Origin: Chloroflexota bacterium | Lineage (GTDB): Bacteria > Chloroflexota > Anaerolineae > Anaerolineales > Villigracilaceae | Assembly: GCA_016219545.1 (NCBI GenBank) | Contig: JACRMH010000023.1 | Coordinates: 1 to 64,000 of the forward strand | Length of the DNA stretch: 64,000 nt | Direction: 5' to 3' | Shown: in pieces, positions 41,830 to 47,772 of the stretch | How the letters are laid out: every line of letters begins with the position of its first letter | How positions within the stretch are numbered: position 1 is the first letter of the stretch | The notes under the pieces: generated by a model | Seen by the model: the letters and a program-made list of their open reading frames with translations, nothing else | Databases searched by the model: none | What the model was told of the DNA's origin: nothing | Position numbers and translations under genes: made by a program

Positions 41830-41924
41830 AGACCCTAAGGGTTTTCTTGGCTATCAATCGCCTTGATATGCCAAACCGTCCTGCCAGACGTGACGAAGAT
41901 TAACGAAAGAAACCCTTAGGGTCT
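41830..41924. repeat. 95-bp element A of the AGACCCTAAGGGTTT family
   Basis: agaccctaagggttttcttg ... cgaaagaaacccttagggtct; same length as element B. Confidence 0.85.
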
Positions 41925-41928
41925 GTTT

Positions 41929-44397
41929 TTACCCTTCCCACACCCTTTCAATCACCTTCTTGACCTTCTCTTCATAAATCCGAATCAACTCCCGATTGCC
42001 GCGGACAATGGCGCGCTCGGTCTCGATGCGGGCGACGATTTCGCGCTGGATTTTCAGCGGTGGTAGGGGAATTTCCCGCTCATACACCGTGCCCTGAGAT
42101 ATTGAGGGCTGTCCACCTTGTTTTGCATATTGATTTAGATTTAATGAAGTCAAAAGATGATATAAATATGTTTGGTCGATTTTAAGTAAATATTCAGTTA
42201 CGAATAATGCATTATCTGTAATCCAGGATTGTGGCATCGTCAAATGGACTACACCACAATATGCACCTACTCGCCCAATAATAAGAGTTTCCTTTTCTGT
42301 AAAAAATTCGTTGTGGTAGCCTGTAATACCATTGCCACCATAAACAGGATACTCGCCTTCCTCGCGGTCTTTTTCTGAAAGGGATTTTCCACTTGATAGT
42401 TTGAATACATTTTCTAACTTTACTTTTTCCCATTCATCTACACCTTCAGGTAAAAGCTCATCAAGTTCAAGTTCAATGTCTGGTTTCCAGCCTTCGACGA
42501 CCTGACGTGCACCGTCTATGATGCGCTGGTAGGCGGCGATTTCGTCCACGAGTTGACGCTGGATTTCGAGCGGTGGCAGGGGGATTTGGAGATTTCTGAT
42601 AACCGATTGCGAAATATTTGGCTGTGCTCCACCGCTGCTAATAGACACCAAGTAATCAGTTTGGCTTTTCAGTAAAAGATAAAGAAATTCTGGAATAAAT
42701 TTATCGTTAGGGAAGACGCCACAAATTGCTTGATTGGTAGTGGCTTCAATTTTCAATATGCCAACTTGTCCAGCAGTTGCTCCATACATTGCAACCAAAA
42801 CAGTGTTAACTGGAAATATCTTTGCTGATGAATTCTTCAAGCCGAGTTCAGTAATTTTTTCTTCGGCGTTATAAACAAATCCTTGGGCAACTTCTCCACT
42901 TTTTAGCCACGGTATTGTGCCATTTTCATAATATTCGTTTTTGCTTCGTAATGGTGTGCCGCCAGATGATGTTTCGCAAATATCACCTAATTTCACCATT
43001 GGGTGTGTTTGCTTTCCGATTCGAATTACTTCGCGGTAACGGTCAGCGCTGAGGTTGTAGTCACTCTCTTCCAGTTTAGAAATTGAAACCAGTAAAGCCG
43101 AATCAGTTTTGGGGGCGAAAGAAGCGGTTTTTCCATCCTGTATACAAACCCTAAAGGTCTCTAAGACCTTTAGGGTTTCTGGTAAATCATTCTTGTCAAT
43201 CGGGCGGCGTTGCGCGCCCAGATCAAATCCGTCGTTTTCGACTTTGACGAACAGAACCTTATCGGTCTTTTTGGCGAGGCTCTTATCCAAAAACAGAATG
43301 GAAGTCTTGACACCTGAGTATGGATTGAACGTGCCCGCAGGCAGAGAGACCACCGCCCATAGGAAATTATTCTCGATCAGATATTTGCGTAATTGCTTGT
43401 ACGCCCCCGCCGATTGAAAGATAATGCCCTCAGGCACGATGATGGCGGCGCGTCCGTTAGGCGTGAGATGCTCCGCCATGTAATCCACGAACAGCACTTC
43501 ACTGCGGTTCGACTGCACCGAAAACTTTTTGTGCGGCATGATGCCGCCCTTTGGCGACATGAACGGCGGGTTGGCAAGGATCACATCGGCGTACTCGTTC
43601 CAGCGTTCCTCGCTGGCGAGCGAATCGTATTCGTGGATCTGCGGTTTGACGAAGCCATGCAAATACAGGTTGACGAGCGAGAGCCGCACCATATCGGGCG
43701 AGATATCATAGCCCGTGAAGTTCTCGTATATCTTTTGTTTTTCTTGTGTAGTTAGAGGTTTAGACCCTAAGGGTTTTAAGAAACCCTTAGGGTCTTGATT
43801 ATTGTTATTGAGGATGTGCTTGTACGCCGAAATCAGAAAGCCAGCCGTGCCACATGCGGGATCAAGCACCGTCTCGTTCTTTTTTGGATCGACCACCTGC
43901 ACCATGAAATCGATGATGTGATGCGGCGTGCGGAATTGTCCCGCGTCTCCCTGCGACCCGAGAACTGATAGCAGATATTCGAAAGCATCTCCCAACTTTT
44001 CAGAGTGGTCGTACGTGAAGTCGTTGATGGTCTTGAGAAAGAGTTTCAGCGTTTCGGGGTCACGGTACGGCAGATAGGCATTCTTGAAGATATTCCGAAA
44101 GAGTTCGGGCAGGTTCGCGTTCTGGCTCATGCGCGTGATGGCTTCGCCGTACAGATTCAACATCTCCACGCCGCCCATGCGCGGGTTGAATATCTCGCCC
44201 CAGCCGTACTTCTTGAACTCACCCTTGAAGAAACTCGCCTTCCCGCCCATCTCGATGGATTGCCTGTCCATGTCATCCATGAACTTATAGATCAACGCAA
44301 TCGTAATCTGCTCCACCTGGCTCTTCGGGTCGGGCACCTTGCCCACCAGAATGTCGCGGGCAGAGTCAATACGGCGTTTCGTTTCGGAATCTAACAT
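41929..44397 (-). CDS. Type I restriction-modification methyltransferase fused to specificity subunit (HsdM-HsdS fusion)
   Basis: HsdM: DAFEYLLSVLGSQGDAGQFRTPHHIIDFMVQVVDPKKNETVLDPACGTAGFL, VILANPPFMSP; HsdS: two TRD halves each with a conserved linker (IPLPPLEIQRQLVDEI.., IPLPPLKIQREIVARI..). Confidence 0.93.
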   Translation of the reverse strand: MLDSETKRRIDSARDILVGKVPDPKSQVEQITIALIYKFMDDMDRQSIEMGGKASFFKGEFKKYGWGEIFNPRMGGVEMLNLYGEAITRMSQNANLPELFRNIFKNAYLPYRDPETLKLFLKTINDFTYDHSEKLGDAFEYLLSVLGSQGDAGQFRTPHHIIDFMVQVVDPKKNETVLDPACGTAGFLISAYKHILNNNNQDPKGFLKPLGSKPLTTQEKQKIYENFTGYDISPDMVRLSLVNLYLHGFVKPQIHEYDSLASEERWNEYADVILANPPFMSPKGGIMPHKKFSVQSNRSEVLFVDYMAEHLTPNGRAAIIVPEGIIFQSAGAYKQLRKYLIENNFLWAVVSLPAGTFNPYSGVKTSILFLDKSLAKKTDKVLFVKVENDGFDLGAQRRPIDKNDLPETLKVLETFRVCIQDGKTASFAPKTDSALLVSISKLEESDYNLSADRYREVIRIGKQTHPMVKLGDICETSSGGTPLRSKNEYYENGTIPWLKSGEVAQGFVYNAEEKITELGLKNSSAKIFPVNTVLVAMYGATAGQVGILKIEATTNQAICGVFPNDKFIPEFLYLLLKSQTDYLVSISSGGAQPNISQSVIRNLQIPLPPLEIQRQLVDEIAAYQRIIDGARQVVEGWKPDIELELDELLPEGVDEWEKVKLENVFKLSSGKSLSEKDREEGEYPVYGGNGITGYHNEFFTEKETLIIGRVGAYCGVVHLTMPQSWITDNALFVTEYLLKIDQTYLYHLLTSLNLNQYAKQGGQPSISQGTVYEREIPLPPLKIQREIVARIETERAIVRGNRELIRIYEEKVKKVIERVWEG
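43146..43178. repeat. 33-bp palindrome in CDS (AAACCCTAAAGGTCTctaAGACCTTTAGGGTTT)
   Basis: Perfect 15-bp arms; in frame in HsdM-S, encodes TLKVLETFRV. Confidence 0.9.
43762..43795. repeat. 34-bp palindrome in CDS (AGACCCTAAGGGTTTTAAGAAACCCTTAGGGTCT)
   Basis: 15-bp arms; in frame in HsdM-S, encodes DPKGFLKPLGS. Confidence 0.9.
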
Positions 44398-44421: not shown

Positions 44422-44454
44422 AGACCCTAAGGGTTTTTAAAACCCTTAGGGTCT
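44422..44454. repeat. 33-bp palindrome on the 3' side of the RAYT gene
   Basis: agaccctaagggtttttaaaacccttagggtct. Confidence 0.92.
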
Positions 44455-44471
44455 TTATTGTTATTTATATT

Positions 44472-45170
44472 TTAATCGTAATCATCTTCCGCAAACCATT
44501 TGGCTTGCCCGTCTGTCACCCATTCACTATGAAGTGACAAATACTCTTCCTTCGTCCCAAACCACTTCATCACTTCACCGCGATTGATCACAGTGGATTT
44601 TTCGTTCAGAATTATCCCATAGGATGAATATTTCCAGTCACGGAAGTCTTTCACAAATCCATGCTTCTGTGGGTTTTGATGAATATAGGCAATCACATTC
44701 CAAAACTGACGATCAGAGGTAATTGGCACGCGCCCGAATGGATGTTGAAATAAACTGCCTGTTCTTCCATAAGCCTTATTGATGGTTTTGGCATAAGCGT
44801 TGAAGAAATTTGAGAATTGGTCGCTAACGTATTTAGACCCTAAGGGTTTTCTTGTCCGACTCATTTCCTCGTTTGCAAGACTCCCTTGCCCCACATCACG
44901 ATTGTTCACGGAAGAAACCCTTAGGGTCTCTTTATCGAGGGTCTTTTTATATTCAAGAATCTCCTCTTCCGATTTCACCCTCAAATCCACATGGAAGTGA
45001 TTCCGCAACATGCAATATGCAAACGTATCTGCGACGGACGAGATATGTTTTTCATACAATTTCATGAAGAGATCGTAATTCCGCTCTTCAACGAAAATAT
45101 TCTCGCCATTCACGCCGCGATTGTAGATATGATAATAGGTGTCGTAGAGTAAAGGTGATGGACTGGTCAT
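44472..45170 (-). mobile_element. REP-associated tyrosine (Y1/HUH) transposase gene (RAYT)
   Basis: YYHIYNRGVNGENIFVEERNYDLF; HUH motif NHFHVDLRV; FSNFFNAYAKTINKAYGRTGSLFQHPFGRVPI; YIHQNPQKHGFV; DWKYSSY. Confidence 0.9.
44835..44929. repeat. 95-bp element B of the AGACCCTAAGGGTTT family, inside the RAYT CDS
   Basis: agaccctaagggttttcttg ... cacggaagaaacccttagggtct; same ends and length as element A. Confidence 0.85.
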
Positions 45171-45185
45171 ATTATTTCAAGTTAT

Positions 45186-45218
45186 AACCCCTAAGGGTCT
45201 TTAAGACCCTTAGGGGTT
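45186..45218. repeat. 33-bp palindrome on the 5' side of the RAYT gene
   Basis: aacccctaagggtctttaagacccttaggggtt. Confidence 0.92.
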
Positions 45219-45228
45219 CGTTATCAAG

Positions 45229-47772
45229 TTAGGTAAACTGATTAAACGACACGTAATCTTTGATGTACTCAATAATCTTATTCCGCAATTCTATTGTTAA
45301 ACTGCGCAAGAACTCACCGCCAGCGTGGCTGCCCATGATATAGGCAAAGTTGCCATCATCCACTTGCATTCTAAAATCATGGTCAAGCACATAAGTCATG
45401 AAGAAATTCTTTGCAGGTGTGAATTGCTTCTCGTCGGGCATGTAACGACTGTCGAACTTATCGAATTCCTCATCCAGCATTTCATCCTTGGATTTGAAAT
45501 AGCCCTTCAACCCAAAGATCACTTCCACAATCTCACGCAAGGTCACGCGGCGGTCAATGCTCAAGGATTTGCGTAACTTCTCAAGATTGAAGAACTCCTC
45601 GGGCTTGTCGAAGATATTATCCTCAATATGCTTGATGATGGCTTCCATATCGCCAGCTTCGGCTTTTTCGACAGCAAATCCATCCTTCTTAATCTGTTCC
45701 TCGAACTTCTGGAAGTACATCCTATCCACGCGCATGCCTTCGGGACCGATGTGCGTTTCTCGAATGGCATTGAGCGCGTCAGCACGCTTGCTCTCGTAGG
45801 CATCGTAAGTGATGCCTGCTCCACCGCCTGTGTCTGTGCCAACGGCGCCAGCCCCGCTGCCGCTTTTGATCTTGGGTAGGTGTAAAACTTCGTTGTAATT
45901 GAAATCCTCTTCAAAGTATTCACAGTTGGCGAAGAAATCGAACAACTTGAATTGCTCTTTTTGCTTTGAGCCTACATTCTTCTTCCATGCCATATCAGAG
46001 ATTTGGTCACTGAAATCATGCTTGCGCGTGCCGCGTCCCTTGATCTGGATAAAGTCAGTCGGTGAGAATACAGGGCGCATCAATGCCAAGTTGAGAATAT
46101 CGGGGCAGTCATAGCCAGTGGTCATCATGCCCACAGTCACGCAGATGCGGGTCTTCCCTGTTTTATAGCTCTCAATGAAATTCGCTGAACCAGATAGGTT
46201 GTTATTTGAGAAGTTCATGGCAAATTGCTGGGCGTCCTGTATCCATGATGTCACCTGAACGGCAAAATCAGATTGATATTTGCCTTGGAACATCTTGTCC
46301 GCGATCTCATTCAACAGTTGCGTGATTTTGGTGGCGTGGTTCTGGCTTACGCAAAACACAATCCCCTTGCCGATTTCATCGCTGATTGGGTCGCGCAAGG
46401 CATTTTTCAGGAAGGTCTCACAAAAGACCCGATTCGTATCATCTGAGAAGAAGGACTTTTCAAAATCCTTCTTGATGAAGGTTTCCTCCACTTCTTCGCT
46501 TTCGTCTTCTTCCGTGGGCATGAGCACGGCATAGCCTTCATCGGAAAGCATCTGTGCGGTAATGTCCGTGCGTGCATCCACGACAACCGGATTGATGAGA
46601 AAGCCTTCCTTGACTCCATCCAATAGTGAATAGCGATAAGTGGGTACGCCGTTTTCACAGCCAAAGGTTTTATACGTATCCATCAAAACACGCCGTTCCC
46701 ATTCACGCGGGGTGTTCTGATTTTCAGGGTCAAAGTTCTTTAGGTAATCTTTCGGCGTGGCGGTCAAGCCGAGTTTGTAACCGATGAAATACTCGAACAC
46801 GGCGCGGCTGTTTCCGCCAATACTACGATGCGCTTCATCTGAAATCACCAGATCAAAATCATCAGGTGAGAAAACACGCTTGTATTTATTCTTGGACATG
46901 AAAGACTGAATGGTTGAAACGACTATTTCGGCTTTGCGCCAATCATCACGGTTTTCTTTATAAACTGCGGTTTGATAATCGTTTTTAAGCAGGATGTTGA
47001 AAGCTTTTTTGGCTTGATTTTCCAGTTCGAGCCTGTCTACCAAAAACAAAACGCGCCGTGCGTTGCCGGTCCGCAGAAACAACTTGATTACGGCGGCAGA
47101 TACGAGCGTTTTCCCTGTCCCTGTTGCCATTTCAAACAGAAAGCGATCTTTGCCTTTCTTTACATTATCCTGAATGGATCTAACTGCTTTGAGTTGATAT
47201 TCACGCAGAAAACGAAGTCCGTTATTCTGAACGAATTGTCCGCGCGTGCTTTCAGAAATCCATGAAGGGTCAGATTTGTAATCGGGCTTTTGAGTTGAAA
47301 CGATATAGTCCCTGTCTACGACTTCGCGCATCAGGTTTCGTGGGTTGGGAGCGAATTTGGAATAACTCTCAAAGGAATCAGGAGAAGGAAATTTTGTTAT
47401 CGGTTGTGGGTTGCCGCGTTGCAAATCCCAGAAATAATGAGAATTGCCATTGGAGAGAATAATAAAACGGCAATGCTGGGACTGGGCATACTTGCGCGCC
47501 TGTTCTTTCCCCGCCAGTGCATGTTTATCTTCTGATTTTGCTTCAAGGACGATGAAGGGAAATCCCTTTTTATCCAGCAAAAGGAAATCAATAAAGCCGT
47601 CTTTGGTTGTCTCAAAGTTTTCGCCAAGCGTACCAATATGGCTCTCGGTGATTTTGACATTATTCTCAAGGACAATATTTGCCTTGCCCTCGGCATTGTC
47701 AAAAAACTTCCAGCCTGCTTCCTTTAGCAACTCATTGATTTTGATTCTAGCTTTGGCTTCTTTTTGCGCCAT
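45229..47772 (-). CDS. hsdR: Type I restriction endonuclease subunit R (HsdR)
   Basis: FIVLEAKSEDKHALAGKEQARKYA (nuclease-type motif); FEMATGTGKTLVSAAVIKLFL; VISDEAHRSIGG; MMTTGYDCPDILNLALMRPVFSPTDFIQIKGRGTR. Confidence 0.93.
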   Translation of the reverse strand: MAQKEAKARIKINELLKEAGWKFFDNAEGKANIVLENNVKITESHIGTLGENFETTKDGFIDFLLLDKKGFPFIVLEAKSEDKHALAGKEQARKYAQSQHCRFIILSNGNSHYFWDLQRGNPQPITKFPSPDSFESYSKFAPNPRNLMREVVDRDYIVSTQKPDYKSDPSWISESTRGQFVQNNGLRFLREYQLKAVRSIQDNVKKGKDRFLFEMATGTGKTLVSAAVIKLFLRTGNARRVLFLVDRLELENQAKKAFNILLKNDYQTAVYKENRDDWRKAEIVVSTIQSFMSKNKYKRVFSPDDFDLVISDEAHRSIGGNSRAVFEYFIGYKLGLTATPKDYLKNFDPENQNTPREWERRVLMDTYKTFGCENGVPTYRYSLLDGVKEGFLINPVVVDARTDITAQMLSDEGYAVLMPTEEDESEEVEETFIKKDFEKSFFSDDTNRVFCETFLKNALRDPISDEIGKGIVFCVSQNHATKITQLLNEIADKMFQGKYQSDFAVQVTSWIQDAQQFAMNFSNNNLSGSANFIESYKTGKTRICVTVGMMTTGYDCPDILNLALMRPVFSPTDFIQIKGRGTRKHDFSDQISDMAWKKNVGSKQKEQFKLFDFFANCEYFEEDFNYNEVLHLPKIKSGSGAGAVGTDTGGGAGITYDAYESKRADALNAIRETHIGPEGMRVDRMYFQKFEEQIKKDGFAVEKAEAGDMEAIIKHIEDNIFDKPEEFFNLEKLRKSLSIDRRVTLREIVEVIFGLKGYFKSKDEMLDEEFDKFDSRYMPDEKQFTPAKNFFMTYVLDHDFRMQVDDGNFAYIMGSHAGGEFLRSLTIELRNKIIEYIKDYVSFNQFT

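Follow-up and report, generated by a model that had tools for sequence, protein, structure and literature searches.

RAYTs are usually regarded as domesticated genes. A RAYT gene lying between the genes of a type I restriction-modification (R-M) operon raises the question of whether it is a mobile element that has settled there, a working part of the defence system, or cargo travelling with it. We addressed this question in a stretch of 64,000 nucleotides from a Chloroflexota genome (hereafter the window), in which Pfam found HsdR, HsdM and HsdS domains all in one operon, identifying it as type I R-M. An earlier note on this DNA had described a RAYT reading frame on the minus strand between hsdR and an hsdM-hsdS fusion (hsdMS), co-oriented with both, and its coordinates were borne out; the two 33-bp palindromes that it had placed around the gene matched letter for letter, with arms 100% complementary (Table 1). 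As argued below, the locus is probably a type I R-M operon that hosts a REPtron-like cassette, made up of a RAYT and the palindromes cognate to it; we infer that the transposase recognizes palindrome half-sites and copies them preferentially nearby.

Table 1. Features of the RAYT-hsd locus (positions in the window).
Feature	Position	Strand	Evidence
Putative mobile cassette palindrome-RAYT-palindrome	44422..45218	-	main blastn match to unrelated hsd operons L085, L086
RAYT, HUH/Y1 transposase, TnpA-REP family, 232 aa	44472..45170	-	NCBIfam NF047646, 4er8 profile and fold
E4, 33-bp palindrome, tag CTAAG, 3' of RAYT	44422..44454	.	16-nt arms, ssDNA fold
E6, 33-bp palindrome, tag CTAAG, 5' of RAYT	45186..45218	.	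16-nt arms, ssDNA fold
E5, 95-bp long-form doublet within RAYT ORF, in frame	44835..44929	.	
E3, 34-bp palindrome within hsdMS, in frame, encodes QDPKGFLKPLGS	43762..43795	.	
E2, 33-bp palindrome, tag CTAAA, within hsdMS, in frame, encodes ETLKVLETFRV	43146..43178	.	
E1, 95-bp long-form doublet directly 3' of hsdMS	41830..41924	.	
hsdR, type I restriction subunit	45229..47772	-	ResIII, HSDR_N; NF046051 E 3.4e-70, below cut-off
hsdM-hsdS fusion (hsdMS)	41929..44397	-	N6_Mtase E 1.6e-56, Methylase_S E 7e-50
Small PC4-like (PF02229) gene, 3' end of inserted segment	41586..41807	-	

The window protein is a RAYT by both sequence and fold. It matched NCBIfam model NF047646 with an E value of 4.6e-12 (46 bits, under the curated 80-bit cut-off) and, in a profile search of PDB sequences, E. 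coli TnpA-REP (4er8) with 2.5e-4, while Pfam returned nothing for it at 1e-3 and just a sub-threshold SduA_N at E values up to 10. A Foldseek search with the AlphaFold2 model (mean pLDDT 88.6) gave the same E. coli protein as the best PDB match (E 8.9e-7). The HUH motif occupies residues 58-60 (H58-F-H60), and H58, H60, Y162 and N166 were invariant in 53 aligned relatives. Y162, the predicted catalytic tyrosine, and N166 align with Y115 and N119 of 4er8; in the alignment to 4er8, guide-binding residues of the E. coli protein are replaced, among them W94 and E100 (F141 and R147 here).

The two flanking palindromes belong to a larger set, as the earlier note had overlooked four related units (E1, E2, E3 and E5), and the window holds 25 occurrences of the half-site AGACCCTAAGGGT with at most two mismatches, where shuffling predicts 0.54. 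The short unit of 33 bp consists of an AGACC-X5-GGTYT arm, three bases and the reverse complement of the arm, each half-site having a short stem and a small loop. X5, which varies by locus, acts as a tag, the versions found including CTAAG, CTAAA, TGACA, TGCCA, TGGAA and TCACA. In the long form, of about 95 bp, the same half-sites enclose about 65 nt, and in the CTAAR-tagged clade this interior is alike in internal and intergenic copies. Arms start with AGACC or AACCC, with GTAG and GTGG absent at either foot. Folded as single strands, the two flanking palindromes reach -15.4 and -16.2 kcal/mol, with z scores between about -5.5 and -5.9. The quasi-palindrome described earlier within each arm is real, but the alternative cruciform built on it is weak: a lone half-site reaches only about -2.2 kcal/mol, and the two-hairpin form therefore falls far short of the single long hairpin in stability.

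Strong hairpins located at gene junctions, with T-rich tails after E3 and E4 on the plus strand, might simply terminate transcription of the operon or stabilize its mRNA. We rejected termination, considering that these tails lie on the antisense strand. Moreover, two copies lie in the hsdMS coding sequence and one in the RAYT gene, internal and flanking tags agree across phyla (see below), and Rfam gave no match to the palindromes, so that either role is extremely improbable.

We also counted the hairpin across genomes. In the window's own genome (4.15 Mb, an 88% complete assembly), AGACCCTAAGGGTTT was found solely in the RAYT-hsd operon. A palindrome family confined to the operon, as this count suggested, was overturned by a wider pattern restricted to short-spaced palindromes, which found 15 copies, 11 of them elsewhere (10 CTAAA and one CTAAG); together with the inverted pair E4 and E6, these dispersed copies give the gene the surroundings by which RAYT/TnpA-REP genes are recognized. 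A pattern leaving X5 free was run on 22 genomes and gave 0 to 129 copies per genome. It imposed no relation between the two X5 segments, yet at the places listed these were nearly always reverse complements of each other. Abundance of the family in genomes lacking a RAYT of this clade, which the earlier note had held to speak against its reading, was found in part: three genomes (G007, G135 and G169) are rich in palindromes, with 17-24 CTAAR palindromes each, and gave no RAYT match even by profile, which may reflect orphan families or an unseen enzyme. As REP families without their RAYT are already known (PMC3733652), such genomes weaken a one-to-one link, not the cassette. Other genomes showed further arrangements. 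Regularly spaced arrays of TGACA palindromes surround the RAYT in three Thiotrichaceae loci (L146, L147 and L150), and the genomes of L146 and L147, the two in which palindromes were counted, have over 100 each. Same-clade RAYTs of Bacteroidota (L132, L127 and L133) are accompanied by quite different palindromes, e.g. AACGTCGGGGAGG..., and in L132 and L133 these divergent palindromes again have a matching internal copy.

At a larger scale, the genes for an S9 peptidase and a creatininase that flank the window operon are 6.3 kb apart here and 6-66 bp apart in 9 congeners, and in most other congeners examined a small unrelated gene lies between them. Judged from these neighbours, the entire hsdR-RAYT-hsdMS segment is an insertion between genes that are close together in congeners. 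The PC4-like gene, not seen between the S9 peptidase and creatininase genes in congeners, belongs to the inserted segment. This segment does not have palindromes at both ends, and its arrival therefore did not have to depend on the RAYT. In one genome (G308, locus L175) the same site holds a different insertion of 5.2 kb, with repeated RHS-like fragments recognized by eye.

Within the operon, a smaller unit could be delimited. In two unrelated operons (L085 and L086), the main blastn similarity to the window covered 45215-44421 and 45219-44416, i.e. from palindrome to palindrome; other blastn hits were palindrome copies, and the hsd genes were without DNA match. The locus had been called an autonomous transposase-plus-palindrome unit. 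The cassette is supported by these limits, but its autonomy is not, as no transposition event was observed, and neither target-site duplication nor strain-level movement was seen at the RAYT cassettes examined. The palindromes are conserved as parts of the cassette, and conservation alone does not make them transposon ends.

The earlier note also saw the RAYT as a colonizer of the operon, and related hsd operons indeed include RAYT-free variants. Among orthologous hsdR-hsdMS operons, four carry a RAYT (the window, G301, G324 and G378) and six do not; the hsdR-hsdMS gap is 56-57 bp in G318 and G407, without RAYT, and is also empty in G364 and G421. Two of the RAYT-bearing operons were apparently reached twice, G324 being L084 and G301 being L088. 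Compared with the window, G324 has a RAYT 90.7% identical but an HsdR only 60.7% identical, and G301 a RAYT 74.8% identical but an HsdR 81.4% identical. In G027, a RAYT 82% identical to the window's sits in an operon with just 28% identity in HsdR, and the orthologous operon of that genome (HsdR 82%) is RAYT-free. By these identities, the relationships of RAYT and HsdR are in conflict.

Alternatively, homologous recombination might carry the RAYT between operons as a passive passenger of a variable hsd slot, its palindromes coming from palindrome-rich donors without any local copying. At the hsdR-hsdMS junction, G380 (L203) has AbiEii-like genes and G027 (L204) a TIR-domain gene and, after it, an IS3-like element, all named from their translations; this junction may therefore be a general insertion slot. 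The similarity between the window and L084 goes past the cassette, from 45271 to 42979; in the closest operons the cassette may have been swapped by recombination, and the lack of target-site duplication would fit as well. However, cassettes also occur where the hsd genes have diverged too far for recombination between flanks, and RAYT-free orthologues are nearly palindrome-free. Passive transport is therefore an unlikely account of the locus.

We then asked how often RAYTs of this clade are found beside hsd genes. A RAYT profile scan with one genome per species gave 80 loci, in which hsd neighbours were called with iterated HsdM, HsdS and HsdR profiles. As listed, 22 of the 80 loci have hsd genes beside the RAYT, including L117, where an opposite-strand hsdR at 2.4 kb from the RAYT is probably unrelated. 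In the set of 83 related RAYT genes, which includes the window's, 24 were labelled as having hsd within about 2.5 kb and 59 were not, some of the latter labels stemming from short contigs; when at least 2 kb was available on both sides, hsd genes lay within 2.5 kb of the RAYT in 16/51. Orientation was the same in 55 cases and opposite in one (L117), and the junctions occupied were HsdS|HsdR, HsdR|HsdM, HsdM|HsdS and HsdR|HsdS. Class genomes contain about 1.2 N6_Mtase matches each (71 in 61 genomes), so that chance proximity would be well under 1%, against the 16/51 observed; the corresponding binomial p of 2.7e-26 ignores kinship and is a guide only. Around non-hsd RAYTs, no Pfam family matched more than 3 of the 77 neighbours, which include a few other methyltransferases. 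Cassettes of this RAYT clade thus turn up repeatedly in hsd operons from four phyla, mostly in Chloroflexota and also in Armatimonadota, Bacteroidota and Thermodesulfobacteriota. The hsd label requires 14 changes on the RAYT tree, at least 7 of them forced by well-supported branches. Most loci come from metagenome assemblies, G027 being a single contig. In viral contigs and a phage collection we found no RAYT of the window clade, and on plasmids a single match of 31%. Our search of open-licence PMC papers found no report of an association of RAYTs with type I R-M systems.

One palindrome lies inside the RAYT gene itself. The stretch encoded by E5 is a predicted linker from the HUH strand to the next core helix, with pLDDT of about 50-65 at residues 81-110. 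Among related RAYT genes, 53 entries with internal doublets were listed, in frame between the HUH and Tyr motifs; these include duplicates of one gene reached via two loci (L057/L123, L061/L140 and L066/L136), and in L109 the position was mis-called. Of the two frames in which the doublets are translated, one accounts for 33 entries and the other for 20; the tag TGGAA occurs in both, as does CTAAA if L054 is counted. Two frames, even for one tag, argue that it is the DNA that is being preserved, rather than the peptide. Internal and flanking tags agreed in 24 of the 25 genes with scorable tags (permutation mean 2.4, maximum 9 in 10,000); related genes in this set are not independent, yet many different tags are represented, and the agreement holds across phyla. 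As tags were called with a fixed grammar, presence values are lower bounds: 30 genes had no detected tag, and long forms and palindromes without AGACC were missed. In one Armatimonadota operon (L111:4596-6806), two adjacent RAYT genes carry different tags, GACTC and GCAGC, each found inside and flanking its own gene. We dropped the internal palindrome as a new discovery: in-frame REP insertions in the transposase gene, between HUH and Tyr, are typical of subclass 2.4 (Quentin 2018, PMC6006769), and our result is therefore an extension of that work.

Palindromes also lie inside and beside the hsd genes. Those beyond the RAYT's own numbered 3, 2, 2 and 2 in the four RAYT-bearing orthologous operons and 1, 0, 0, 0, 0 and 0 in the six RAYT-free ones, the hsdMS end of G407 being absent from its contig (Mann-Whitney p 0.004, Fisher p 0.024); as this comparison of ten operons is small and the operons are related, the p values are only a guide. 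Around the RAYT genes, palindromes with the RAYT's own tag had a density of 1.12 per 10 kb at hsd loci versus 0.23 at non-hsd loci, about fivefold. Near hsd-borne RAYTs, 28/34 own-tag palindromes were in or at hsd genes, and hsdM, hsdR and hsdS all harbour them. Individual copies vary between operons: the homologue of hsdMS in L084 lacks E3, the place of E2 is taken in L088 by tandem half-sites, and the E2 palindrome is retained in the RAYT-free operon of G318. This last case, together with the palindrome-rich genomes without RAYT hit, indicates that palindromes can persist without an adjacent RAYT. Palindrome-rich donors of hsd operons could also raise the local density, so that local copying is what we infer from these counts.

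Short duplicates of the hsdS 3' end were seen downstream of the operon in L084 (8622-8947) and L085 (5363-5521), the latter between two long-form elements, and also beside the operons of G318, G364, G027, G378 and G324 (L218, L220, L226, L223 and L225), with or without RAYT. As such fragments also accompany RAYT-free operons, we abandoned the idea that the RAYT has a part in duplicating hsdS ends.

These observations bear on another explanation, in which the R-M system has adopted the RAYT to rearrange or diversify hsd genes via the palindromes, to nick incoming ssDNA, or to regulate the operon by hairpins. The strict co-orientation and tight spacing of RAYT and hsd genes, their recurrence together in four phyla, the palindromes within hsdM, hsdR and hsdS, and the long-form elements adjoining the duplicated hsdS 3' end in L085 would all agree with such a role. 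However, orthologous operons without RAYT look intact, the hsdS fragments beside RAYT-free operons (G318, G364 and G027) are unexplained by a RAYT, and the majority of the clade's genes have no hsd label (59/83); an adopted function is accordingly quite doubtful. It is similarly improbable that the RAYTs of this clade are working R-M partners whose transposase and hairpins alter hsd genes from within by moving hairpin-coded linkers or specificity segments; if this were true, a domesticated transposase would be diversifying a defence system.

The reading that we prefer, a cassette lodged in the operon, can be put as a mechanism. The RAYT would recognize 15-nt half-sites, AGACC-X5-GGTYT with their short stem and small loop, in single-stranded DNA and act on inverted doublets of these, in the 33-bp short form or the long form of about 95 bp. 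It may copy the doublets preferentially nearby, and copies that preserve the frame in linkers of Hsd proteins would survive. The frequent horizontal gain of hsd operons, and their retention under selection, would allow the cassette itself to persist. With cassettes that switch partners among unrelated restriction operons, empty sites, matching tags and hairpins within genes, this RAYT clade offers natural experiments on RAYT-hairpin specificity and local copying. Defence operons would be a habitat for minimal mobile elements, which bears on how RAYTs spread and persist.

Finally, we compared the window family with known systems. Like REPtrons and RAYTs (Nunvar 2010, PMC2817692; Di Nocera 2013, PMC3733652), it has an HUH/Y1 protein related to TnpA-REP, cognate inverted flanking palindromes and dispersed copies; it differs by having no GTAG foot, by double hairpins with a 5-nt tag, by its home in hsd operons and by palindromes in hsd genes. 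The missing GTAG foot excludes canonical GTAG REPs and not the wider family, as subclasses without GTAG have been described (PMC6006769). Subclass 2.4, or RAYT group 4 (Quentin 2018, PMC6006769), shares with it the in-frame internal REP, an insert of variable sequence or length that separates strand 3 from helix C, and a scattered distribution over phyla. In that subclass, however, the feet are GT[AG]G, as opposed to the AGACC outer arm in the window, and W94 and E100 are replaced in the window protein (F141 and R147). Without GT[AG]G feet, the window family is not filed under subclass 2.4. TIRYT (PMC3733652) and subclass 2.6 (PMC6006769) are also RAYT-like genes with palindromic flanks lacking GTAG, and double palindromic TIRs and atypical structures are reported for them; the text consulted mentions neither an internal cognate copy nor an R-M association, both of which are seen in the window family. 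REPINs (Bertels and Rainey 2011, PMC3116915) are likewise mobile units of two inverted half-sites, but of another sequence, whereas the window elements have a spacer of 3-4 nt or about 65 nt and copies inside coding genes. Rickettsia palindromic elements (PMC3733652) also lie in frame within protein-coding genes; the window family differs from these in having a transposase gene with tag-matched flanking palindromes.
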